NCBI GenBank assembly: GCA_021804085.1
Contig: JAJZKM010000004.1
Coordinates: 1-44,305 of the forward strand
Direction of reading: 5' to 3'
Length of the DNA: 44,305 nt
Source: a bacterium
GTDB taxonomy: Bacteria > Patescibacteriota > Saccharimonadia > Saccharimonadales > UBA4665
Numbering within the stretch: position 1 is the first letter of the stretch; each line of letters opens with the position of its first letter. The notes under the pieces are model-generated. The model had not been told where the DNA came from and did not search any database. It saw only the letters and a list, made by a program, of their open reading frames with translations. A program made the position numbers and the translations under genes. Positions 886-22,777 of the stretch are shown here, one piece after another.

Positions 886-2238
886 ATGAGAGCGCCCTCG
901 TTTACTGCTAAGATCATGCCGTTACTTTTTGTGATTTGTGGTATCGTGCTTGTTCTATTGCCTTTTCATGCCTTTTTGACTGTTTGGGCTAGTTCTAATT
1001 TTGGACATTACACTTTATTTAGACTATGGAAAGAGTTTTTGGTTTTACTGCTAGGGCTAGCGGTTATCTGGTTATTTTTTATTGATAAGGAAATCAGGGG
1101 AATAGTCTTTAAAAGTAAACTAACCTTGATGATTTTCATCTATGTGATTCTTGATTGTGTTAGTGGCTTTGTGGCGCACGAAAAACATTTAGTCAGTAAT
1201 AAAGCTTTAGCTTATGGGTTCCTTGACGATCTACGTTTTTTCAGTTTTTTCATTATTTGCTGGGCTTTGGCTCTAAAGTCTAATCGCTTAAATAAAATAT
1301 GGGCACAGCTTATTATCTGGCCAGCAGCGGTTGTTATAATGTTTGGATTGCTTCAAATGAGTGTACTGCCGGCAAACATTTTAGTTCATTTTGGATATGG
1401 CCCAAAAACCATTGAGCCTTTTCAAACAATAAACAATAACCCCAATTATATTCGTATTCTGTCCACGCTTCGAGGTTCTGACCCTTTGGGCACGTATCTT
1501 ATTTTACCAATTAGCGCCCTAGCAGTACTGTTGCTTAAGTATCCACGTAGATGGGGTTGGGCTAAACTATCTATGCTTGTGGCAGCTGTCATAGTACTTT
1601 ATGGTAGTTATTCTCGGGCGTCCTGGATTGGAGCAGTCATAGCTTGCGCTATCGCCGTCGGAACTTTAATCAGTCGAGAATTTATTGTGAAACATAGGAC
1701 TTATTTTATTGCTGTGGCAGCGATTGTAGTTGTTTTGGGTATATCATCTGTAGTTATATTTGCTCACAGCAAAAGATTCCAGAATGTAATATTTCATACC
1801 CAAACTAATTCTGTCGAACCCATTAGTTCTGATCAGGCACACTTGAGCGCACTTAAAGACGGGCTTAAACAAATGAGTTCTCATCCTTTCGGTCAGGGGC
1901 CCGGTTCTTCCGGTCCAGCTAGCGTGTATAACCGTTTACGCCCACCACATATCACTGAAAACTACTTTTTGGAGATAGGGGAGGAAACAGGCTGGATTGG
2001 TATGCTATTGTTTATTGCAATTAACATCTATCTTGCGCTTTTGCTTTGGAGAAACCGAAGCTCTCCATTTGCGCTTGTGTTATTTATTTCTCTTATAGGA
2101 ATAAGTTTTGTAAATTTACTGTCGTTAGCCTGGAATGATGATACTTTATCTTATTTGTGGTGGGGTCTTGCTGGTTTATCTATGGCTTCTACCCCATTAA
2201 TAAAAAGCCATAGCCATTTAGTGGAGAAGTCGTCTTGA
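886..2238 (+). CDS. O-antigen ligase/polymerase-like membrane protein
   Basis: This 450-residue protein has about ten or eleven predicted transmembrane helices. A large extracytoplasmic loop lies near residues 295-360 and contains a GPGSSG-rich stretch followed by HITENYFLEIGEETGWIG. That histidine/glutamate-rich loop is the hallmark of the Wzy_C (O-antigen ligase, WaaL/RfaL-like) superfamily. Members join or polymerise undecaprenyl-linked glycans at the outer face of the membrane. In a lineage without lipid A it more likely polymerises a surface polysaccharide or glycosylates proteins. It lies next to the divergent glycosylphosphotransferase. Its stop overlaps a possible TTG start of the next gene. 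The precise substrate is not inferable. Confidence 0.8.
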   Translation: MRAPSFTAKIMPLLFVICGIVLVLLPFHAFLTVWASSNFGHYTLFRLWKEFLVLLLGLAVIWLFFIDKEIRGIVFKSKLTLMIFIYVILDCVSGFVAHEKHLVSNKALAYGFLDDLRFFSFFIICWALALKSNRLNKIWAQLIIWPAAVVIMFGLLQMSVLPANILVHFGYGPKTIEPFQTINNNPNYIRILSTLRGSDPLGTYLILPISALAVLLLKYPRRWGWAKLSMLVAAVIVLYGSYSRASWIGAVIACAIAVGTLISREFIVKHRTYFIAVAAIVVVLGISSVVIFAHSKRFQNVIFHTQTNSVEPISSDQAHLSALKDGLKQMSSHPFGQGPGSSGPASVYNRLRPPHITENYFLEIGEETGWIGMLLFIAINIYLALLLWRNRSSPFALVLFISLIGISFVNLLSLAWNDDTLSYLWWGLAGLSMASTPLIKSHSHLVEKSS

Positions 2239-2684
2239 ACGAAATGCCGGCAAAAGTTCGACCAACCAAAAAACAAAGCCAGTTGCTTGAGTTTATCGGG
2301 ATTTTTATTAGTGAGCACGGCTATAGTCCTAGTTATAGAGAAATAATGAAGGCTTTGAATTATAATTCCGTTGCTAGTGTCTCTCTGCATATTAACAATC
2401 TAATTAAACGAGGCCATTTAATAAAAAGAGATCATGCTGCTCGTTCACTTGAGCTTGTTAACGGAGGATCTAGCAAGTCTATACTTACTAATGAGGTTAA
2501 GCCCGATCAAGAGAAGTGGTTGGTTGAAAAGGTTGAGCATTTATTGCGCGAAGCCGAACAAAGGGCAAGGCCGGTTCCCAGTGAAGTAGATAATTTAATT
2601 ATTCTTGTCGGTGCGCTCAAGATACTGGGATTAGATGCGGCAGCAACAAGTTTTACGTCAAGGATTAAGAGCTTGAAATCATAA
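2235..2684 (+). CDS. LexA-type winged-helix DNA-binding protein lacking the autoprotease
   Basis: Residues ~4-72 match the LexA N-terminal domain in order: a PTKKQSQLLEFI helix, HGYSPSYREIM, then a recognition segment and SLHINNLIKRGHLIKRD wing. LexA continues into an S24 peptidase domain with a Ser-Lys dyad. Here only ~75 helical, charged residues follow and no serine protease motif is visible. Total length is 149 residues versus ~200-230 for LexA. The TTG at 2235 overlaps the previous stop and sits 9 bases after a GGAG; the ATG at 2244 is the alternative start. It is probably translationally coupled to the upstream membrane gene. A repressor with another trigger is likely, not a self-cleaving SOS repressor. 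Confidence 0.7.
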   Translation: MNEMPAKVRPTKKQSQLLEFIGIFISEHGYSPSYREIMKALNYNSVASVSLHINNLIKRGHLIKRDHAARSLELVNGGSSKSILTNEVKPDQEKWLVEKVEHLLREAEQRARPVPSEVDNLIILVGALKILGLDAAATSFTSRIKSLKS

Positions 2685-2714
2685 ACTATCTAGGACTATA
2701 GTGTAGATTACTTT

Positions 2715-2835
2715 AACATTTAAATTCATGCCGGAACTAGGTGTAAATCCTAGGCTGTGCCGCAACTGTAAGCCGATATTCTCGGTAAGCCAGACACGGT
2801 AATACGAAGAGATCTCTCGAGCAAGAGCTTATTTT
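2715..2835 (+). promoter_or_regulatory. Cobalamin (B12) riboswitch
   Basis: The core shows the class-defining elements in order: GCCGGAAC at 2730-2737, then a P5 hairpin CTAGG/CCTAG enclosing the GGTGTAAATCC motif (2737-2754). Next come GCTGTGCCGCAACTGTAAG (2754-2772), a CCGA/TCGG hairpin (2773-2785), and AAGCCAGACAC (2787-2797). These correspond to the GGTGNAAATCC, CGCAACTGT and GCCAGAC signatures of the cobalamin aptamer. It lies between the LexA-like gene and the zinc-ribbon gene on the same strand, with a hairpin at 2848 as likely expression platform. Boundaries are approximate and the L5-L13 kissing partner was not located with certainty. Confidence 0.85.
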
Positions 2836-2847
2836 ATTAAACTAAAG

Positions 2848-2886
2848 ATGCCCTTGTTTCGTTAAGAGAACGAGGGCATTATTATT
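2848..2886 (+). terminator. Hairpin after the riboswitch, probable attenuator
   Basis: A 12-bp stem forms between 2848-2859 (ATGCCCTTGTTT) and 2868-2879 (GAACGAGGGCAT) with two G-T wobbles and an 8-base loop, followed by TATTATT. The T-tract is interrupted, so termination could be modest or regulated. Its place just after the aptamer suggests it is the B12-dependent expression platform. Confidence 0.6.
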
Positions 2887-2952
2887 GAAACACTAAAAGA
2901 GTCTAGGAGGGAAGAACTACACAGTTTTGATATCTGTGCGGGCGTTCGTTCT

Positions 2953-4077
2953 TTGAGGCTGGACCTATTGTTGCACGATGCAGTTCTTGAGTTGACCTAT
3001 GAGCAGGTAAAGAACGAACAATTAAGCTATCTTGTTGAAGGTATTGATAAATCGTCATGTACTGAATTCGTATTTCAGCGTCAAGCGGAAGACTTGGTTT
3101 ACTTTGATGATGGAAACTGGCGTACCCATCGTGAAATGTTAGAGTTGGGGCTCGCCGCAGCGCAACATGAAGCGATAATTGATCCCAGGCGTTCATTTTT
3201 AGTTGACTGGGCGACTAATGATCTTGATCAATACCAAAAAAATCTTAAGTTATCTCCTGGCGAGAAAAGAGTTTGGGCATCGCCCTATCCGCTAGAAGTT
3301 GAGATGGCCTACGGAAAAGACTTTATGTGCCAGTGCGGCTTGAATCCCGATCGACGTCTAGGATTTATTTATCTTGCCAGCTGCAATGAAGAGTATAGTG
3401 TCTCGCTTACTACTCAGAGCATTGATCTTAGCGATAAAGATGCCCTAAAGTCGGCTATCGATATTTTTGACAGTAATCCGAATCTTGGTATGGAAAACAT
3501 TGTCGAAGAGTATGATCGTGTGCTGGCCGAGAAGTTCGGAAGAAGATTTTATGCGGGTCGTAATGAGAGCAATAAAAATCAGAATGCTTGGGAGGAATTA
3601 CTGGATCCAGCCAATGGCGATATTGTTAATTATCTTATGGAGGGCCTAGAGAGGTTGGCTCGATCAAATGTGCCGGTCAATGAACTTAATGATCGAGTGG
3701 AACGACATATCATTGGGGTCTGGGCGCTGTATAAAAAACGCCTTAATAGAGAATCTTTAACTCACGATCCGAAACCTACTAGTCAATTTATATCGATTCA
3801 CAAAATTTCCTTAGCTGTCGAAGTAATGAATGCGTACAAAGAATCTGCTATTAAGGGTGAAATATTGAGTGGCTGTGGAGGTAGTATGAGAGCAAAGGAT
3901 GCTTCTAGTGTCTTAGAAGCTATTTTTGGACGAGGGAGCCCCAAGACAGAGTTATTGAAGTGTGTACACTGTCCTTTATGCGGTCGCCAAGGTGTCGATG
4001 CGAAGATTGTGAAGAAAAATGGTACAAAAGTCATCACTTGTCTAAAATGTCATCGTTCTAAGCAATACTCGGCCTAA
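2953..4077 (+). CDS. Unknown protein with C-terminal zinc ribbon, under a B12 riboswitch
   Basis: The protein is not recognised. The body (residues ~1-330) is soluble, acidic and mostly helical with no membrane segment. The last ~35 residues carry a zinc-ribbon pattern: CVHCPLCG, then ITCLKCHRSK after a short beta-like stretch. Such ribbons often bind nucleic acid or protein partners. The start is uncertain. TTG at 2953 has no Shine-Dalgarno, whereas a strong AGGAGGG stands at 2905-2911 and the frame stays open upstream to 2866, so translation may begin before 2953 from a non-standard codon. It is not a class II ribonucleotide reductase, methionine synthase or recognisable B12 transporter, the usual targets of cobalamin riboswitches. 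Confidence 0.65.
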   Translation: MRLDLLLHDAVLELTYEQVKNEQLSYLVEGIDKSSCTEFVFQRQAEDLVYFDDGNWRTHREMLELGLAAAQHEAIIDPRRSFLVDWATNDLDQYQKNLKLSPGEKRVWASPYPLEVEMAYGKDFMCQCGLNPDRRLGFIYLASCNEEYSVSLTTQSIDLSDKDALKSAIDIFDSNPNLGMENIVEEYDRVLAEKFGRRFYAGRNESNKNQNAWEELLDPANGDIVNYLMEGLERLARSNVPVNELNDRVERHIIGVWALYKKRLNRESLTHDPKPTSQFISIHKISLAVEVMNAYKESAIKGEILSGCGGSMRAKDASSVLEAIFGRGSPKTELLKCVHCPLCGRQGVDAKIVKKNGTKVITCLKCHRSKQYSA

Positions 4078-4130: not shown

Positions 4131-4727
4131 ATGTCAAAAAAGCAAAGAATTGGAATCTATAGCGGTAGCTTCAATCCCGTTCATGCTGGGCATATTTCTT
4201 TTGCTCTTCAGGCGTTAACTGTTGCCAGCTTAGATAAAGTATATTTTATGCCTGAACGTTACCGACAGGGTAAAATCGACATGGCACACTATGCTCACAG
4301 AACAGCAATGATTCGTCAGGCGATTAAACCTTATAGGCGTTTAGGATTGATTGATAATAGTGATGTTAGTTCCAGCGTTGCTAAAACACTACCTAAGCTT
4401 AGTAACATGTATTATGGGTCTTCGTTGGTATTCTTAATGGGCTCGGATATCCTAGCGTCGCTTAAGGATTGGCCTAACGCAAAGTTGTTGCTAAGATCAA
4501 GCGAGTTAGTGGTTGGGATTAGGCTAGGTGATGAATCAAAAATTGAGGGATGGTTGAACGAACTTCCGTGTCCCCCCAAGCGACTATACAGTTTCGCCTC
4601 TCATGCCCCCGACGTTACATCTACAAAAATTCGCAATGCCCTACGTAAAGAAGAAGAGGTGCCTGGCACTCTTTCCAGTGTTCGTCGCTATAACAATCGT
4701 AATTGGTTGTATATTTCTTTGGCTTAG
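4131..4727 (+). CDS. nadD: Nicotinate-nucleotide adenylyltransferase-like protein
   Basis: This 198-residue Rossmann-fold nucleotidyltransferase has the ATP-binding motif GSFNPVHAGH at residues 12-21 (the GxFxPxHxGH signature). A C-terminal VTSTKIR at about residue 165 corresponds to the ISSTxIR motif. NadD adenylates nicotinate mononucleotide in NAD synthesis. MGSDILASLKDWPN in the middle matches the NadD-type G(A/S)D...W segment that contacts substrate. Length fits the family. A related adenylyltransferase acting on another substrate cannot be excluded. It is followed by a strong hairpin terminator and appears to be a single-gene unit. Confidence 0.8.
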   Translation: MSKKQRIGIYSGSFNPVHAGHISFALQALTVASLDKVYFMPERYRQGKIDMAHYAHRTAMIRQAIKPYRRLGLIDNSDVSSSVAKTLPKLSNMYYGSSLVFLMGSDILASLKDWPNAKLLLRSSELVVGIRLGDESKIEGWLNELPCPPKRLYSFASHAPDVTSTKIRNALRKEEEVPGTLSSVRRYNNRNWLYISLA

Positions 4728-15808: not shown

Positions 15809-15884
15809 TGGTGGGGATGGCTGGATTTGAACCAGCGACCAATCGGTTATGAGCCGACTGCTCTAACCACTGAGCTACATCCCC
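15809..15884 (-). tRNA. tRNA with CAU anticodon, probably tRNA-Ile2 (lysidine target)
   Basis: On the minus strand a full cloverleaf is seen: acceptor GGGGATG/CATCCCC, D-arm GCTCAGTGGTTAGAGC, anticodon arm TCGG-CTCATAA-CCGA, T-arm CTGG-TTCAAAT-CCAG, discriminator A and an encoded CCA at 15811-15809. The GGCTCATAACC anticodon arm resembles bacterial tRNA-Ile(CAU), whose C34 is changed to lysidine by TilS (encoded at 23345). Elongator Met is the alternative, but the tRNA at 22701 fits Met better. Confidence 0.9.
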
Positions 15885-15941
15885 GGACTCTTTAAAAGGA
15901 GTATACCAGATCTATGTTAAGACATATAATATATATTATTA

Positions 15942-16385
15942 ATGCAAACAAAGATTAATTATATCAAAGCCGTATTTACGGATTTCATACATCGACTTAA
16001 GGATGTTCGTTTTGCCGGTCAAGTAATTTTTGTAATAATAGTGCTCCTTATAAGTTGGAGTGGCATAAAAGCTATTAATTTAAATCATAGTTTACTAAAC
16101 CAAATAGCTACTCAGAAACAACAAAACATTGTACAAGAACTGAAAAATAATAATTTACGATTGCAAAATCAATACTATGAATCGTCTCAATATCAGGACT
16201 TGCAGGCTAGGGTTAATTTTGGACTCGGTGATCCTGGTGAAAAAGAAATTCTTGTGCCGCGGAACGTTGCTTTAGATTATGCACCAAAAATAAGAGTTAA
16301 TAATAGCCAAAAATCACGTATAAATATCTCGCCTATTCAACAAGACATAACTGGTTGGGTTAATTATTTTCTTCATCGCACCTAA
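15942..16385 (+). CDS. FtsB/DivIC-like septum protein
   Basis: This 147-residue bitopic protein has a cytoplasmic basic head of ~25 residues and one helix (~29-45, VIFVIIVLLISWSGI). An extracytoplasmic coiled coil (~52-85, Gln/Leu/Asn heptads) follows, then a DLQARVNFGLGDPGEKEILVP stretch like the ARexlGlvkpGE end of DivIC/FtsB. Such proteins join FtsL in the divisome and help activate septal peptidoglycan synthesis. TATAAT at 15925-15930 predicts a start ~5 bases before the ATG. Confidence 0.65.
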   Translation: MQTKINYIKAVFTDFIHRLKDVRFAGQVIFVIIVLLISWSGIKAINLNHSLLNQIATQKQQNIVQELKNNNLRLQNQYYESSQYQDLQARVNFGLGDPGEKEILVPRNVALDYAPKIRVNNSQKSRINISPIQQDITGWVNYFLHRT

Positions 16386-16660
16386 GTGTCCAGGTTCAGA
16401 TAAATAGGTGCTACTTCTAGAATACAATTAAGTTATCTAGGAGACGGGTCAATGAAACACGCTCGAGTACAGACTTGGACATGGCGTGGTGATACCAGGA
16501 TTAAATAGTATTGAGAAGACGGTTAGCTTAACTAAAGAAGCTAAACAAAGATTAAACTGAATAGATTTTTATGAATCACACAACCAGAACGCTAGGCTAA
16601 CCTGTAGGCACTATGGCATCCATCATAAGACCTTTTTTACCGCTACTAAAACCGGTGTAG
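16386..16660 (+). mobile_element. Decayed transposase N-terminal fragment
   Basis: From ATG 16452 a broken frame reads MKHARVQTWTWRGDTRI, shifts frame near 16500, then continues SIEKTVSLTKEAKQRLN, a stop, and IDFYESHNQNARLTCRHYGIHHKTFF before more stops. The second part is the helix-turn-helix start of an IS481/IS3-type transposase. GTGTCCAGGTTCAGATAAAT just after the upstream gene (16387-16406) may be a decayed IS end. No integrase core follows. This is a non-functional remnant. Confidence 0.6.
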
Positions 16661-16680
16661 AGTAAAGGGTCTAGCTAGCA

Positions 16681-16919
16681 TGCTGAACGAACGGCGCAAC
16701 CAACTTTATAAGTTTGAGGAAATCAAAGAGCTTGCCACCCAACTTTCACAAGTTAGAAGTTTGAGATTACGAATACCCGTTCCATGAAGATACTCCATCA
16801 AAGGAAAACGCTTAGCAGAAATGGTCACTAAAGGTGCTGATTCAAAAGCCCTAGTAGAGGACGCCTTGGTTCGCAAAACTGGCGACAATGCCACTGACCT
16901 AGTTTACATGGTTAGCTAA
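16681..16919 (+). other. Decayed coding debris before the metallopeptidase gene
   Basis: One frame from about 16700 to 16919 reads like protein (LYKFEEIKELATQLSQVRS, then after a TGA, KRLAEMVTKGADSKALVEDALV) but is broken and has no good start. I see no intact gene. It may be the remains of a gene disrupted together with the transposase fragment. Confidence 0.3.
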
Positions 16920-16945
16920 GCTCTGATTTTATATTTATAATGCTA

Positions 16946-16986
16946 TTGCTTAATCGGCAATATTGTGTTAACATTGTATATGTTAA
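16946..16986 (+). promoter_or_regulatory. Promoter with overlapping palindromic operator for the metallopeptidase
   Basis: TTGCTT (16946-16951) and TAACAT (16969-16974) are 17 bases apart. A perfect inverted repeat, TTAACAT-5-ATGTTAA (16968-16986), covers the -10 box and start region, a typical position for repressor binding. The gene starts at 17002. Confidence 0.45.
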
Positions 16987-17001
16987 GTCAAAAACAAAAT
17001 T

Positions 17002-18381
17002 ATGGGCGAACAATTACAATACTACGACACGGCAAGTTTTGAAGGCCCTGCAAGTAACGGTGAAGCTATGAGCAAGGCTGAAGAGGTGCTCGAACTAGCA
17101 GCTGACGTGCAGCACATTGGTTCGGTTGCATTGTTTAGCGAGGTACAAGCTGGCAATATAGTTGGTAGTTCAACAGAGGTTTCTGTGCCAAATCCCGTTG
17201 CTGGTTACAGTGAAAAACGAACACCAAAGACACTTTTTGGAAAAGGTAAAGAGCGCTATGGGCGTATTACTGCAAAGCTTGATGGTGCGGACAAAGCATT
17301 GAGCGACTTACAGACTGGCTTAAGTGGCTATGCCGCTTCTAGCGAAGCAAGCCTAACCCTACAAGGCGTTGCTCTGAATAGTAGTGGTACGGAAGTATTA
17401 CGCCATATGCAAAATAACGGCAACCAAGAGATGATTTTGCGAGGTTCTAACGTCTCGCCATTCTTAAAGTTGTCCAAAGACTTAGCAGCAAAGGCTCAAG
17501 GTAAAAACCCAAGTGAGTTTGGTTGGCAAGATTGGTTCAATTCTGCCAAAGAGGAACACCTTATCAACTTCTCGCAGTGGTATACTGAGCGGTTAAAAAC
17601 GCTGGCAGACCCCGAAACCAAAGCCGAGTACGTCGAATCGCTAAAAACTGATTATAAAGATCGTGTAGCTCAGGCGATGCAAGAGGGCTGGATTCCTGAT
17701 GGCAAATTACATAAAGCAGCTCTGGCGACTAGAATAGCACGAGCTGATGTTCGCTTCTTCTCGTTGTTTGGACGCATGCCTGACCATGCTGGCGGTTTGT
17801 CGGAGAAGAGTGGTCTAGGCAAGGTTATAGTCTTTCTGCCGACACTTGAAGGCAAGAAAGTTACAGTACATGAGTTCGGCCACGTCTTTGCGGGCGTAGA
17901 CGCAAGAAATATGCGTGACTACTTCATTCGTACCCTCGGCAAGGAAGAAACGTGGCGAAAAAATCCAAGAATTGAGTATTTGTACACCATTTTAAACGAG
18001 GGTTATAACGATCATATGACTGCTGCACTTATTGATGGCCACCCCACAACTATTATCCCAACCGAACGTGACGCTGAAGGGATTGTAGAAACCGAGGGCA
18101 GTAGCGAGGGCTACAAAGTATATCGTGAGATATTTGGCGTATTAATGGGCGGAGAGAACGGTAACGTCACCAATGCTGATATAAAAGATACTGTTGATAG
18201 TATGGTAATCGGTAATTTTGGACAATTTGCTCATCAGCTAAGTACCAAGTGGGGCGGCCGTGACGTAATTGGTGAGGTACTTGAAGTGGTAGCTAAACAT
18301 GATAATGACCGGTGGAACAATCTAGATAATCCTGACTACAACGAAAAACTACTTGCTAAAAAGATACGAGAACGCCTTTAG
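17002..18381 (+). CDS. Predicted HEFGH zinc metallopeptidase, unassigned family
   Basis: This 459-residue protein has no signal peptide or membrane segment. The C-terminal half holds KKVTVHEFGHVFAG with the zinc motif HEFGH at residues 290-294. A downstream LNEGYNDHMT (332-340) could give the third ligand, Glu333, as in gluzincins. The preceding IVFLPTLEGKKVTVHEFGH layout, with a beta-strand edge then the active helix, fits zincin folds. The N-terminal ~280 residues are helical and Ala/Ser-rich with no known domain. Base use is more GC-rich and Ala/Gly-rich than neighbours, and it follows transposase debris, so transfer is possible. Export would need a route other than Sec, or it acts inside. 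Confidence 0.65.
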   Translation: MGEQLQYYDTASFEGPASNGEAMSKAEEVLELAADVQHIGSVALFSEVQAGNIVGSSTEVSVPNPVAGYSEKRTPKTLFGKGKERYGRITAKLDGADKALSDLQTGLSGYAASSEASLTLQGVALNSSGTEVLRHMQNNGNQEMILRGSNVSPFLKLSKDLAAKAQGKNPSEFGWQDWFNSAKEEHLINFSQWYTERLKTLADPETKAEYVESLKTDYKDRVAQAMQEGWIPDGKLHKAALATRIARADVRFFSLFGRMPDHAGGLSEKSGLGKVIVFLPTLEGKKVTVHEFGHVFAGVDARNMRDYFIRTLGKEETWRKNPRIEYLYTILNEGYNDHMTAALIDGHPTTIIPTERDAEGIVETEGSSEGYKVYREIFGVLMGGENGNVTNADIKDTVDSMVIGNFGQFAHQLSTKWGGRDVIGEVLEVVAKHDNDRWNNLDNPDYNEKLLAKKIRERL

Positions 18382-18486
18382 TCTCCTCTACTGTCATTGC
18401 TGTATATGCTGGTCGCGTGAACCACTACAATTCATTGACTTAGTCACCTCTGTTTGTTAAGATAGCTTGGTCTTTTTAGATAATAT

Positions 18487-18561
18487 CGCGGGGTGGAGCA
18501 GCGGCAGCTCGCGTGGCTCATAACCACGAGGTCACAGGTTCGAGTCCTGTCCCCGCAACCA
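18487..18561 (+). tRNA. Initiator tRNA-fMet (CAU)
   Basis: The structure parallels bacterial initiators. C1 faces A72 (mismatch) at the acceptor end, followed by GCGGGG/CCCCGC. The D-arm is GAGC/GCTC with a short 7-base loop, the anticodon arm is CGTGG-CTCATAA-CCACG, the T-arm is ACAGG-TTCGAGT-CCTGT, and ACCA is encoded. The unpaired C1-A72 is the key initiator feature. Oddly, the three G-C pairs 29-31/39-41 are reduced to T-A, G-C, G-C. Confidence 0.95.
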
Positions 18562-18581
18562 GATCATGCACTTACAGTATT

Positions 18582-18609
18582 AGACCGGATTTATAGGCCG
18601 GTCTTTTTA
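18582..18609 (+). terminator. Terminator after tRNA-fMet
   Basis: A 7-bp stem, AGACCGG (18582-18588) with CCGGTCT (18598-18604), and a 9-base loop is followed by a T-run. Confidence 0.8.
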
Positions 18610-18805
18610 TTTATCTATTAAAACCATACTCCTGTAGTTTTGGTTTCAGAAACAAAGAGTTAATAAAAAATTAAGATTTGTCATCATGCTTCGGAGGCGT
18701 GTTGTGGGGTCTTATATCCACTAATATACATCGGTAACAAAAAAATTATACAAATTTATAGATTAATTATCGCGCACCAAAAAATAAACTAACTATAAAA
18801 AATAC
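18610..18805. other. AT-rich spacer, no gene seen
   Basis: Between the tRNA terminator and the two-component promoter this AT-rich stretch shows no supported coding frame. A GC-richer patch at about 18687-18720 can form weak short pairings, not enough for an RNA gene call. Confidence 0.4.
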
Positions 18806-18869
18806 TTGCCAAAAAAAACAATATATTGTACTCTCAGCAATTAAGAGGTGGCGAGGTTAGTATCACCTC
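18806..18869 (+). promoter_or_regulatory. Promoter and leader hairpin for the two-component genes
   Basis: TTGCCA (18806-18811) and TACTCT (18829-18834) are 17 bases apart, predicting a start near 18841. The leader at once forms a 6-bp hairpin, GAGGTG (18845-18850) with CACCTC (18864-18869). Confidence 0.5.
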
Positions 18870-18891
18870 AATGACATAGGGTTGATTGGGT

Positions 18892-19587
18892 ATGTTGATT
18901 CAAAAAAGACTATTAATTATAGAGGACGACATCGGATTAACACTAGCGCTTTACCGTGCCCTTAGTCATACCTATAAAGTAGATACAGCTAAAACCGGCC
19001 AAAGTGGAATTACTAAGGCTTTGAATTTACCCCTAGACTTAATTATTCTAGACCTAAATCTTCCAGATATTAATGGAATCAAAGTTATAAAGCACTTGCG
19101 ACAAGCGGGTGTTGGGGTGCCGGTATTGGTCTTGTCGGGGGAAAGCGGTCTAATTAGCAAGGTGAACCTGTTAGATAGTGGTGCCAGCGACTACGTAATT
19201 AAGCCCTTTAGTCTTGCCGAATTAAACGCTAGAATTAGAGCACTGCTGAGGCAGAATTATTATCCTACCAAAAGTGTTTTAGTGAGTTCCGATTTAGTGC
19301 TGGATCCTAATTTACGCAAGGTGACGTATAAAGGATCTGATTTGGGGCTTAGAAGGAAAGAATTTCTACTTTTGGAATGTTTAATGCGTAATCCCGGCAA
19401 GGCTGTAAGCCGTACTTATTTATATACATACGTCTGGGGAGCGCGTGGTAGTTTGAGTAATAATTCAATAGACGTCCATATTAAAAGTTTACGTGACAAG
19501 ATCGGGCCAGAGGGACATGATATGGTGACAACTGTTCATGGTCTTGGATATTGCTTTAACTATTCTAAACCTAAGGTAAGGATTTAA
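18892..19587 (+). CDS. OmpR/PhoB-family response regulator
   Basis: From ATG 18892 (231 residues) the receiver domain shows acidic E11, D12 and D13, phospho-acceptor D54 in LIILDLNLPDINGI, a VLVLSGE Ser position and the conserved lysine in SDYVIKPF. The C-terminal winged helix (~130-228) contains KEFLLLECLMRNPGKAVSR and NSIDVHIKSLRDKI. It should bind DNA as a dimer when phosphorylated. The histidine kinase starts 4 bases after its stop, so the two form one operon. TTG 18886 is in frame but less likely as start. Confidence 0.9.
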   Translation: MLIQKRLLIIEDDIGLTLALYRALSHTYKVDTAKTGQSGITKALNLPLDLIILDLNLPDINGIKVIKHLRQAGVGVPVLVLSGESGLISKVNLLDSGASDYVIKPFSLAELNARIRALLRQNYYPTKSVLVSSDLVLDPNLRKVTYKGSDLGLRRKEFLLLECLMRNPGKAVSRTYLYTYVWGARGSLSNNSIDVHIKSLRDKIGPEGHDMVTTVHGLGYCFNYSKPKVRI

Positions 19588-19591
19588 AACG

Positions 19592-20368
19592 ATGGGTCGG
19601 ACATTGACTGACGTCAATAGCCGACCAATAATTCAACGTTTGTCGGCGGTTCAGATTAATGATGCTGAGTTTATGCGCTTGGCTGAATTTGGAAGTGCTA
19701 CTGCAGCGTTAATACACGAAATCAGTACTCCGTTAACATCAGCCACGATTTCATTATCTCAACTCAGGGGGACGGATACCGATAATATAATTAAAGATAT
19801 TCGGCGTGATCTTAAACAGCTTGAACGTTATGTTGTAGCTGCTCGAAAGCAACTTAAGGGAGAAGCTAAAAACGAGAGTTTTTCTTTAACCGTGGCAATT
19901 CATCAGGTTGCGATGATGTTAGATAGCCGTGCAAAAAAAGCTAGAGTTAAGCTGCTCATAAATACATTAGGGTCTATCCGGCTGTACGGAGATAAAATTA
20001 AATTTCATCAGATAATTACAAATCTAATAAATAATGCTATCGATTCTTATACCCTTGGAGATAAATCGTCTCGTCTGGTACTTATTAATGTGACTAGGTC
20101 TAATGGCCGAGCGATAATAACCGTCAAGGATTCAGGTTGTGGTATTAACGAAGAGAATTTGAAAAAGATTTTTGACCCATTTTATTCTACTAAGCGTGTT
20201 TCAAATCTTGGAATGGGAATTGGTCTAGCTCTAACTAAACAATATATTGAACAAGATTTTAGAGGTAAGGTTGATGTTAAATCGCAAATCGGTGCTGGTA
20301 CGATTTTTACGGTGAGCCTTCCTATTAATTCAGCAAAAACTAGTCACACCAGTATACTTTCAGCCTAA
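19592..20368 (+). CDS. Soluble histidine kinase without a sensor domain
   Basis: This 258-residue protein has only the kinase core. The H-box is ATAALIHEISTPLTSA with His42, then N-box NLINNAIDSY, G1 DSGCGI, F-box FDPFYSTK and G2 GMGIGLAL. No transmembrane helix or PAS/GAF domain precedes the H-box, only ~30 residues. Input must therefore come from a partner, perhaps the small membrane protein encoded next at 20397. Its likely target is the response regulator just upstream. Confidence 0.9.
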   Translation: MGRTLTDVNSRPIIQRLSAVQINDAEFMRLAEFGSATAALIHEISTPLTSATISLSQLRGTDTDNIIKDIRRDLKQLERYVVAARKQLKGEAKNESFSLTVAIHQVAMMLDSRAKKARVKLLINTLGSIRLYGDKIKFHQIITNLINNAIDSYTLGDKSSRLVLINVTRSNGRAIITVKDSGCGINEENLKKIFDPFYSTKRVSNLGMGIGLALTKQYIEQDFRGKVDVKSQIGAGTIFTVSLPINSAKTSHTSILSA

Positions 20369-20396
20369 TCTACTAAAGTGTAGTAGAGTAATAATC

Positions 20397-20825
20397 GTGA
20401 CGCCTACAGATAATCATAAACCAGCAAGTGTTAGTTCAAATGGCACTCGACAGATTGTCATGAGTTTGAACATGTTTGTTAAGGTAATTTTAATAATCTT
20501 GCTTGTAGGTTTGAGTTTTTATGGGGGTTATTTGTACGGCAACGACAATCACGTCTATAACTATAATTTGAATAACGTTCCTATTGCGAGAAAATTTGCC
20601 ATTGGTCTAGTACTCTATATCAGCCCAACTTCAATTACTATATCTAACGAAGAGAGCAGTATAAGCCAGAGTTTCAATATTACACCTCATACCACGATAA
20701 GTATTAACGGCACTAAGGCTGTTGCATCTCAAATTACAGCCGGAGAGATGGCATTAATTAGGATTAATCGTACAAATTCCAATCAAGCAGGAGTGATCAT
20801 AGTAAATACTCATTTTCACGGATAG
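20397..20825 (+). CDS. Small single-span protein with DUF5666-like outer domain
   Basis: The frame begins with GTG 20397 (142 residues). A Thr/Ser-rich cytoplasmic head is followed by one helix (~27-45, VKVILIILLVGLSFYGGYL) and an outer ~85-residue domain. That domain's order (IGLVLYISPTSITISNE, FNITPHTTISINGT, ITAGEMALIRINR) matches the repeated beta pattern of DUF5666-type domains. It follows the sensorless kinase by 28 bases and may be its membrane partner or a regulated target; both are inference. Confidence 0.6.
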   Translation: MTPTDNHKPASVSSNGTRQIVMSLNMFVKVILIILLVGLSFYGGYLYGNDNHVYNYNLNNVPIARKFAIGLVLYISPTSITISNEESSISQSFNITPHTTISINGTKAVASQITAGEMALIRINRTNSNQAGVIIVNTHFHG

Positions 20826-21413
20826 AAACTTATTATCTATCTGGCGTAATTTTCTTATAGGTATATTTGTCTCGCTAGTTTCGCCTAAAATTATAGAGAC
20901 TGCACTAAAATCCCAATCATCTAGCCTAAGTACTATTTTAAAGGGTTTGTTGTATTGGACTAGTATGCGTGATAACTTTGCTGCTTCAATAAGGTTGTAT
21001 AAAAGTGGGCTTGAGATATGCTCTTCTATAGCAACATTGCCTATTTCAAATAGTGTAGTTTCCTTGAGGCCAAGTAGGATTTAGGTGAGCACATTTCTGC
21101 AAGAAGTTTGAGTATAAAATCATCAGCTAAAGTGAAATTTATATATGGACCAACAGGCTGGGCTTTCTTAATAAATTCTTGGGATTTAAGTAATGTAGCT
21201 TCTTGGTTGTTAAATCAGACGGGGCTATACTTAGCCTCCTAGCAAATTCAAACGTTGTAAGGGTATAGTCTGGTTGCCAGTCCAAGCTTAGAGCCGCAGA
21301 GTAGGGCCCTAAACCAAGCTTACGGACCAAGCCAGCCTCGTATCCTAAGTCACCTAGTACTTTCGTATATGTGTATTAAGTAGGGTCTGGCTGTAGTTTA
21401 ATGAAGTTTTCAT
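20826..21413 (-). pseudogene. Decayed gene, weakly ArgRS N-terminal-like
   Basis: Reading the minus strand from ATG 21413 and allowing frame changes gives a coherent protein-like text. It starts MKTSLNYSQTLLNTHIR, then DLGYEAGLVRKLGLGPYSAAL, FEFARRLSIAPSDLT, shifts to FIKKAQPVGPYINFTLADDF, then LFEIGNVAIEEHISSPLLYNLIEAAKLSRI. The middle resembles the arginyl-tRNA synthetase N-terminal domain (family pattern: GDY..N.A..lAK.l...P..iAe ... GPGFINF.L). No catalytic HIGH region is seen. At least two frameshifts make it a pseudogene. The parentage is uncertain. Confidence 0.4.
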
Positions 21414-21526
21414 TCCGGGCCTAGGTAATAATTCCTTGATTATTGGTGATAGGTCAGCTTAAACTTAAAATATAACCTGCCAGTTACATGATTGTCTAGG
21501 CGTGCCTAAAACCTTCTTAACTGCTA

Positions 21527-21532
21527 TATAAT
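21527..21532 (+). promoter_or_regulatory. -10 box TATAAT for the MBL hydrolase gene
   Basis: TATAAT ends 10 bases before ATG 21542; the predicted start at about 21539 leaves a 3-base leader. No clear -35 box or ribosome site is seen. Confidence 0.45.
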
Positions 21533-21541
21533 AGCTAAACT

Positions 21542-22384
21542 ATGAATGTGACTATGCTTGGCTCTGGCTGTTGGGAAGGCACTCCTGCTCCTTTTTGTTC
21601 GTGTCGAATATGTTCTATAGCTAGTAAAGATCATAATTCTATAGAATATCGTTCTCGTCCAGAATTATTTGTTTCCACTGAAGAAGGAAAGTTCCTAATA
21701 GAAATTAGCCCAGATATTAGGACGCAATCTACTCGGTACAATCTACCTCCTGTTACGGACTTTATAGTTAGTCACTGGCATTTTGACCATATGTTTGGTT
21801 TATACGAACTTCATGCCTGGATAGAATTAGTTATCAAGTCAAAAGTTAATATATATTGCTCGGTGGCAGCTAAAGAAATGCTAGATAGGCAATTTGGATT
21901 TATACCAACGAATATAATCGTGATTAAAGCCTATAAGCCCTTTGAGTTACACGGTGTTAAGATTACGCCCATACCCGTCTATCACATGAGTAGTATAGAT
22001 AAGGACAAAACACCTTATAATCTTAATAATACCTTCGGATATATTTTAGAAGATTCTAATAATAAAATAGCCTACCTAGCTGATTATTATGAGGTACCTG
22101 AACAGTCATTAGAGCTTATTGAAGACGCGGAAATTGTAATAGCGGACGGCACTTACTTATTTGAAGAACGCTACCCTGATAAGCCATACCAGAATGCAAC
22201 CCATGAAGAAAAAGATCCGGATCACTTACATGGGGACAGCATAATCAAATTTACAAACTCACTGAACAATGCACGCATAATCTATCATTCAATAACGCAT
22301 TTGCCAGAACAGGAACATGCAGAGCTCCAGGCACTTTTACCTGAGGGTCATGAGATTGGATTTGACGGCATGAAGGTTACATAG
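21542..22384 (+). CDS. Metallo-beta-lactamase-fold hydrolase, PhnP-like
   Basis: This 280-residue MBL-fold protein has the metal motif HWHFDH at residues 78-83 (HxHxDH). Further ligands are in PVYHMS (~155), ADYYE (Asp, ~185) and a late YHSITHLPEQEHAE. Cysteines near residues 10-24 (GSGCWEGTPAPFCSCRIC) match the extra zinc site of PhnP-type cyclic phosphate phosphodiesterases. It probably cleaves a phosphodiester or cyclic phosphate in the cytoplasm; the substrate is unknown. No phn genes are nearby. It is followed two bases later by a truncated amidohydrolase, and the pair may have arrived together. Confidence 0.8.
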   Translation: MNVTMLGSGCWEGTPAPFCSCRICSIASKDHNSIEYRSRPELFVSTEEGKFLIEISPDIRTQSTRYNLPPVTDFIVSHWHFDHMFGLYELHAWIELVIKSKVNIYCSVAAKEMLDRQFGFIPTNIIVIKAYKPFELHGVKITPIPVYHMSSIDKDKTPYNLNNTFGYILEDSNNKIAYLADYYEVPEQSLELIEDAEIVIADGTYLFEERYPDKPYQNATHEEKDPDHLHGDSIIKFTNSLNNARIIYHSITHLPEQEHAELQALLPEGHEIGFDGMKVT

Positions 22385-22386
22385 CT

Positions 22387-22722
22387 ATGCCATTCTCTGA
22401 ATACGATTACAGAAAATATTTTGAACATGGCATGTCTCCTACAGAGTATGAGACTACGTATAGGGATGTGCTTAACGGAAGGCTTCCCTCTGATGTTGTT
22501 GACTGCCATGTACACGCAGCCGAAGTTCAAGATTTTGATGTTGGCAGAATGAGTGACTTTGCTTGGCATCACATGGTTAGCACTTATCCTGAAACTACTC
22601 TTGAACAATCTGAGCAGAAGTTAGTCAGTGTAAGTGCCTATAGCCGTCAAATTCAGCTGTCAAGCGACTTCAAAACACAATATATAGGTATAAATAACAT
22701 TGGTAGCGACGAGTGGACTTGA
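22387..22722 (+). pseudogene. Truncated amidohydrolase-like gene
   Basis: The first ~80 residues look like a metal-dependent amidohydrolase, with VVDCHVHAAEVQ giving the first-strand DxHxH metal motif, then FAWHHMVSTYPETTLEQSEQ. After about residue 80 (near 22625) the sequence loses protein character, and the frame ends inside the tRNA gene on the other strand at 22720. Amidohydrolases need four further metal ligands on later strands, all absent, so the product cannot be active. It shares a transcript with the MBL gene. Confidence 0.55.
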
Positions 22723-22777
22723 ACCACTGACCCCAGGCTTATGAGTCCTGTGCTCTAACCAACTGAGCTACGCCGCC
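22701..22777 (-). tRNA. Elongator tRNA-Met (CAU)
   Basis: A minus-strand cloverleaf is complete: acceptor GGCGGCG/CGTCGCT, D-arm GCTCAGTTGGTTAGAGC, anticodon loop CTCATAA, T-arm AGTGG-TTCAAGT-CCACT, discriminator A and encoded CCA. The GACTCATAAG loop context and the GGCGG acceptor match bacterial elongator Met. Position 31-39 is an A-G mismatch in the anticodon stem, which is unusual. Confidence 0.93.

Follow-up and report, generated by a model that had tools for sequence, protein, structure and literature searches.

Does a cobalamin riboswitch in the reduced genome of a Saccharimonadales bacterium control a protein outside the target classes recognised for such elements, and what might this protein do? 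Known targets of this riboswitch class (Rfam RF00174) are genes for B12 synthesis, transport and adenosylation, metE and ribonucleotide reductase isozymes. An initial annotation, made from the DNA letters and their open reading frames, had read the locus as a cobalamin riboswitch acting on a non-classical target in an organism that scavenges cofactors, and the computational tests described here support this proposal. We refer to the whole stretch of DNA analysed (44,305 nt) as the window, and to the target gene and its product as X. To our main reading, in which the riboswitch represses X in response to B12 and X itself has a role in cobalamin handling, we give a probability of roughly 0.55.

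The aptamer and its surroundings

A covariance-model search with RF00174, as the initial annotation had suggested, returned a significant match at 2694-2815 on the forward strand: the score was 36.0 bits against a gathering threshold of 31.5, with E=1.1e-5 over the whole window and 9.3e-8 when 2600-2960 was searched alone. This is the sole cobalamin riboswitch match in the genome to which the window belongs (652 kb, 26 contigs, 81% complete). The core strings that had been read as a clear aptamer core lie at 2740-2798, inside the match, and the start given for the aptamer (2715) has to be moved about 20 nt further upstream.

2235..2684, forward strand: LexA-type DNA-binding-domain protein, upstream, without peptidase domain (PF01726, 50.2 bits; TIGR00498, partial)
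2673..2702, forward strand: weak candidate for a sigma-70-like promoter, TTGAAA-18-TATAGT, immediately ahead of the riboswitch (consensus scan; its 10/12 matches are not above shuffle expectation)
2694..2815, forward strand: cobalamin riboswitch aptamer (RF00174, 36 bits; also in 17/19 genomes of the genus)

Several further loci (L008 in genome G057, L219, L220, L227 and L233) carry long insertions between conserved aptamer blocks and were missed by the Rfam search; RF00174 probably under-counts cobalamin riboswitches in Saccharibacteria. In the literature, within the incomplete coverage of our search, no paper was found on cobalamin riboswitches in the candidate phyla radiation, Saccharibacteria or Patescibacteria. 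Elsewhere in the window (15809-22777), all three of its tRNA genes have a CAT anticodon (two on the reverse and one on the forward strand) and are perhaps initiator Met, elongator Met and Ile2.

Expression platform and proposed switching mechanism

From the aptamer to the start of gene X the following elements can be recognised:

2758..2762, forward strand: loop L5 (UGCCG), predicted to form a kissing loop with L13 (GTGCCGC[A/T]AC in 42/42 loci)
2814..2827, forward strand: P13 hairpin CUCU-CGAGCA-AGAG, with L13 CG(A)GCA complementary to L5 save for one bulged base
2819..2859, forward strand: predicted antiterminator, 2819-2825 (GAGCAAG) with 2853-2859 (CUUGUUU), from P13-terminator complementarity
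2848..2887, forward strand: terminator and Shine-Dalgarno-sequestering hairpin, arms 2848-2861 and 2866-2879, tail TATTATTG

The attenuator-like hairpin that the initial annotation had placed before the gene is found at 2848-2879, and folding of 2800-2890 yields -24 kcal/mol (z = -3.5 against dinucleotide shuffles); aptamer and hairpin had thus been recognised correctly, and P13 and the kissing loop are to be added between them. A Shine-Dalgarno-like GAGGG (2872-2876) lies within the 3' arm of the terminator. The L5/L13 complementarity was assessed in 42 loci that had been located solely with the Rfam model, in which P13 is not included, and without use of the motif: CGAGCA, which pairs with UGCCG if its A bulges, occurs no more than 110 nt past L5 in 40 of them, compared with 0.95 expected by shuffling. 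One of the two other loci (L031) has CGGGCA instead, in which only the bulged base is altered, and the second (L040) is a foreign-looking contig. Across 138 loci, the 3' side of P13 and the 5' arm of the terminator show a mean complementarity of 15.0, as against 10.6 +/- 0.17 for shuffled arms and 12.1 for a reversed-arm control. Membership of RF00174, to which the covariance score already points, is hence borne out in silico both by the L5-L13 kissing loop and by a switchable expression platform, albeit one with a weak U-run in the window. Relatives have the identical arrangement of terminator and Shine-Dalgarno sequence, with better U-runs and an ATG immediately after; since the U-run (TATTATTG) and the ATT start codon of the window are poorer than these counterparts, termination may be weak in this copy.

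The expression platform predicts repression of X by B12. In the mechanism that we propose, the riboswitch would turn X off when cobalamin, probably adenosylcobalamin (AdoCbl), is plentiful: with ligand bound, L5 would kiss L13 (its A bulged) and keep P13 closed, upon which the downstream hairpin would form, stop transcription and hide the Shine-Dalgarno sequence. In the unbound RNA, the 5' arm of the hairpin would instead be taken up by the 3' side of P13, leaving transcription and translation to go ahead. X would therefore be produced under B12 shortage; the identity of the ligand and the sign of regulation are what we infer here. The same fold logic has been demonstrated by mutation in the metE riboswitch of Priestia megaterium (PMC10653944), which shares with our locus the aptamer core, the L5-L13 kissing loop and the pairing of the P13 3' side with the terminator 5' arm as antiterminator. 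It differs in that its kissing loop has five contiguous pairs, whereas that of the window (UGCCG/CG(A)GCA) has one bulged base, and in that the Shine-Dalgarno sequence here is inside the terminator 3' arm; furthermore, the gene under control here is neither metE nor a gene for B12 synthesis, B12 transport or a reductase isozyme.

Gene X as the conserved riboswitch target

2884..4077, forward strand: gene X, target of the riboswitch (frame open from 2866, with ATT 2884 as likely start; product of about 397 aa)
4131..4727, forward strand: next gene, possibly co-transcribed, NadD-like nicotinate-nucleotide adenylyltransferase (PF01467, 53.9 bits; TIGR00482, 89 bits, under the family cut-off)

The initial annotation had started X at a TTG (2953), which is too far downstream: relatives keep sequence upstream of this position (SFDI.AGV...) and begin with an ATG that aligns with the ATT at 2884-2886, so that the product grows from 374 to about 397 residues. 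ATT start codons are rare, and this one is possibly a single-base error in the metagenome assembly.

A cobalamin riboswitch match is present in 17 of 19 genomes of the genus, and the downstream protein belongs to one family in every readable case, with two subfamilies (the window type and a type of 430-480 aa) alternating at one locus. Across 149 genomes of the order Saccharimonadales, 75 have a riboswitch match and 90 have X, and 63 of the 76 matches lie directly upstream of X. Six of the other 13 precede DUF4430/DUF6580 genes (the first copy in G019, and G111, G123, G134, G160 and G162; some of these assignments were made by eye from translations). The remainder comprise an X-like protein followed by NadD (G077), an X cut off by the contig end (G086), long unclassified ORFs (G072, G097), positions close to contig ends (G101, G119) and a foreign-looking contig (G093). 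Viewed from the target, an aptamer or its recognisable core is found upstream of 90 of 91 X genes, the remaining gene starting at a contig end. This includes 28 X genes without a riboswitch match that were inspected by hand, and all or part of the aptamer core was recognised upstream of 27 of these (L235 and L236 were read only in part); by our own estimate, such a core motif is expected by chance about 0.01 times per upstream stretch. The initial annotation had asked whether homologues keep the riboswitch, and had seen its case endangered by homologues without an aptamer and another gene as the conserved target: the homologues do keep it, and X stays the direct target. On one contig of G019 (C1; L176, L182, L185), a first cobalamin riboswitch precedes DUF4430/DUF6580 and a second precedes X.

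These counts also bear on whether the aptamer could be a decayed or chance match without function. A score of only 36 bits and the imperfect terminator tail and start codon in the window would fit such a match, but its position and expression platform are conserved across the order and beyond; we ruled this explanation out on conservation, and hold it to be extremely improbable. It is also very improbable that the NadD-like gene is the true target and X a passenger. NadD-like genes do follow X in 19 of 37 loci, at gaps sometimes below 20 nt; however, X is the first gene and starts directly after the terminator, gaps between X and NadD reach 300 nt, and NAD synthesis offers no reason for repression by B12. 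As 18 of the 37 X loci have no NadD downstream, some only on account of a contig end, NadD was rejected as the sole riboswitch target. Sequence and conservation together show the aptamer, the kissing-loop complementarity, the competing hairpins and X as conserved direct target, and we regard the link between aptamer and X as very likely. Rather than being confined to the genome of the window, X makes up the main B12 regulon across its order.

The X protein family

X belongs to none of the families of known targets listed at the outset, and apart from a weak C-terminal zinc ribbon it matched no family in Pfam, NCBIfam, PHROGs or PADLOC, in agreement with the initial annotation, which had placed the product outside known riboswitch targets and called it a zinc-ribbon protein. 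The ribbon (CxxC...CxxC, Cys codons at about 3970-4059) resembles the Elf1 type over about 40 C-terminal residues only (PF05129, 20.7 bits against a cut-off of 29.8; Foldseek probability 0.84), the other roughly 330 residues of X being unrelated: X was not accepted as an Elf1 homologue, its PF05129 score being below the cut-off. PRK14892 gave 15.2 bits against a cut-off of 109.

AlphaFold2 models of the two subfamilies are of fair to good quality (pLDDT 79.6 and 78.7; pTM 0.71 and 0.73) and share one layout of helices, alpha/beta core, helices and ribbon. The fold search that had been recommended for the protein gave no PDB fold match beyond the zinc ribbon: Foldseek found no significant PDB match with either model, and the best PDB entries (KICSTOR, LOV/PAS, longin and LasR; E >= 0.019, TM-scores by query length < 0.2) are meaningless. 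A search of the viral BFVD with the second subfamily model gave no significant match either, and with PHROGs and PADLOC empty or at chance level a phage or defence protein was dismissed. Also set aside were profile matches to 3-hydroxyacyl-CoA dehydrogenase and D-ornithine aminomutase S (chance), and an eRF1/GGQ-like reading of a GGxxxxG[RQ] motif, for which the window has GR and which no search supported. X shows no known cobalamin-binding motif and, on inspection, no recognisable signal peptide.

The X profile collects 79 members. The window protein has the profile match, the conserved Cys before the ribbon, the four-Cys ribbon and the upstream riboswitch that characterise the family; its value of 2.3e-88 against profile A3 is to be read with the window protein itself contained in A3, but an independent single-sequence search found X matches at 44-49% identity in 5 genomes of the genus. 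In a 31-member alignment (residues numbered from codon 2878) invariance is limited to E54, C333 and C365, while S135, C368 and C391 come close to it; C333 lies alone before the ribbon in a small-residue motif (GCGG, SSCPG, SACG). At loci where both genes are complete, median pairwise identity is 23% for X versus 42% for the adjacent NadD-like protein, and X remains at a median of 23% where the neighbouring NadD proteins are 60-70% identical. Judging from these alignments, the X locus is one of strong diversification or allele replacement.

The same riboswitch type elsewhere in Patescibacteria

A pattern of aptamer core plus P13 matched at least 119 stretches, mostly from Patescibacteria; matches in Clostridia (L080, L082, L166) look like chance hits at a coding gene and were discarded. 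Among the matches listed, the downstream genes include DUF4430 plus DUF6580, which are likely to serve B12 uptake. In Magasanikbacteria, Kaiserbacteria and Nomurabacteria (L105, L078, L097, L142 and others) the riboswitch type precedes DUF4430-like proteins. In L105 (3662-7034) the second gene also matches PF01122, a eukaryotic cobalamin-binding protein family, which suggests a transcobalamin-like surface protein in Patescibacteria. The DUF4430/DUF6580 loci (L071, L105, G019, G123) resemble the X locus in riboswitch type, kissing loop and B12-linked lineage; they encode a transcobalamin-C-like DUF4430 protein and a membrane protein, whereas X looks soluble and carries a zinc ribbon without such domains.

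Two Levybacteria operons (L110, L073) with the same riboswitch encode a PduO adenosyltransferase followed by an X-like zinc-ribbon protein. The hhalign probabilities to X of proteins from Levybacteria/Microgenomates are 93 (L137), 89 (L129), 65 (L110_g2) and 46 (L073_g4): these values are suggestive of homology to X for the first two, and the proteins from L110 and L073 are at most tentative homologues. The L110 operon runs on into a VirD4-like coupling ATPase. In six further loci (L074, L100, L128, L131, L148, L167) a variable acidic protein comes after the riboswitch, then a Clp-like AAA+ ATPase and, in those loci that were read further, a VirD4/TraG-like ATPase, apparently a B12-linked machine. 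A variable 660-aa protein follows the riboswitch in L065, L126 (Gottesmanbacteria) and L061, and in the latter two a small protein rich in proline and a VirD4-like ATPase with a membrane anchor lie further on. In Beckwithbacteria (L170) the order, named by eye, is riboswitch, unknown 546-aa protein, NrdR and NrdJ (class II ribonucleotide reductase).

B12 physiology of relatives and the role of X

Among 61 relatives, an AdoCbl-dependent class II ribonucleotide reductase scored above cut-off in 54; the 81%-complete genome of the window yielded none. A PduO-type adenosyltransferase and EcfT were each found in 0/61, and DUF6580 and DUF4430 each exceeded the cut-off in 4/61. Weak and partial FecCD matches were not accepted as BtuC. 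Because the reductase is this frequent and neither PduO nor EcfT was found, the relatives look dependent on B12 without a recognised route of import or (PduO-type) adenosylation. Two nearly complete genomes (G056, G021) are without the AdoCbl reductase; in G056 a weak riboswitch match persists and three stops interrupt the reading frame of X, perhaps an X decaying after loss of the need for B12.

X is most likely a B12-starvation protein. A link to B12 is favoured by the AdoCbl reductase in 54/61 relatives and by the other genes under this riboswitch type, namely DUF4430 with DUF6580, the PF01122 protein and PduO beside an X-like protein. As to function, the reading we favour, still held with less than even confidence, is that X is a soluble factor that serves the class II reductase by helping to acquire, bind or process cobalamin. 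Counting against such a handling role are the hypervariability of X, unusual for a cofactor chaperone, the negative outcome for a cobalamin-binding motif, a fold match and a signal peptide, and the failure to find the AdoCbl reductase in the incomplete genome of the window. A more speculative and less probable version is that X founds a new cobalamin-response family in Patescibacteria, its fold not in the PDB, which helps B12-dependent epibionts without known importers or adenosyltransferases to obtain B12, possibly directly from host cells; hypervariability would then reflect variable host partners.

Somewhat less probable again is that X acts as an effector directed at host or environment under B12 shortage, for example by making an actinobacterial host release B12, with diversification through an arms race. 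The swapping of X subfamilies at one locus and the 23% identity of X beside NadD at 60-70% would suit this, as would the riboswitches of L110, L126 and L128 that precede variable proteins beside VirD4/TraG-like coupling ATPases; yet no secretion signal was seen in X, its Saccharimonadales neighbours are NadD-like and LexA-like genes rather than secretion genes, and its C-terminal zinc ribbon is of a sort typically seen in proteins inside the cell. We consider it unlikely, at odds of about one in five or thereabouts in our judgement, that X answers the effects of B12 loss, namely failure of the AdoCbl reductase and dNTP shortage, as a B12-free substitute, a reductase partner or a replication brake: the near-universal AdoCbl-class reductase of relatives, the Beckwithbacteria operon and the LexA-type protein upstream of X in the window are in keeping with this, but no library revealed a ribonucleotide reductase or replication domain in X, nor was there a fold match.

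Relation to known systems and significance

As a regulatory element the riboswitch belongs to a known kind; the target family is new to cobalamin riboswitches. A precedent for a B12 riboswitch before a gene of uncertain function is ppe2 of Mycobacterium tuberculosis (PMC11260477), whose protein and lineage bear no relation to the present case. The arrangement in the Levybacteria PduO operons differs in that the Saccharimonadales relatives are without the PduO adenosyltransferase (0/61).

Patescibacteria account for much of bacterial diversity, and for most of them a life on hosts is assumed. For the orphan, fast-evolving X family, the riboswitch provides a physiological handle, namely that the protein is expected to be made when B12 is short, and for genetics in these organisms it is a ready-made B12-dependent control element. 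Judging by their genome content, the relatives make DNA precursors with an AdoCbl enzyme but have neither PduO nor EcfT, and X makes the question of their B12 supply testable. X thus points to what may be an unrecognised part of the B12-shortage response in B12-dependent Saccharibacteria, which are tiny parasitic bacteria.
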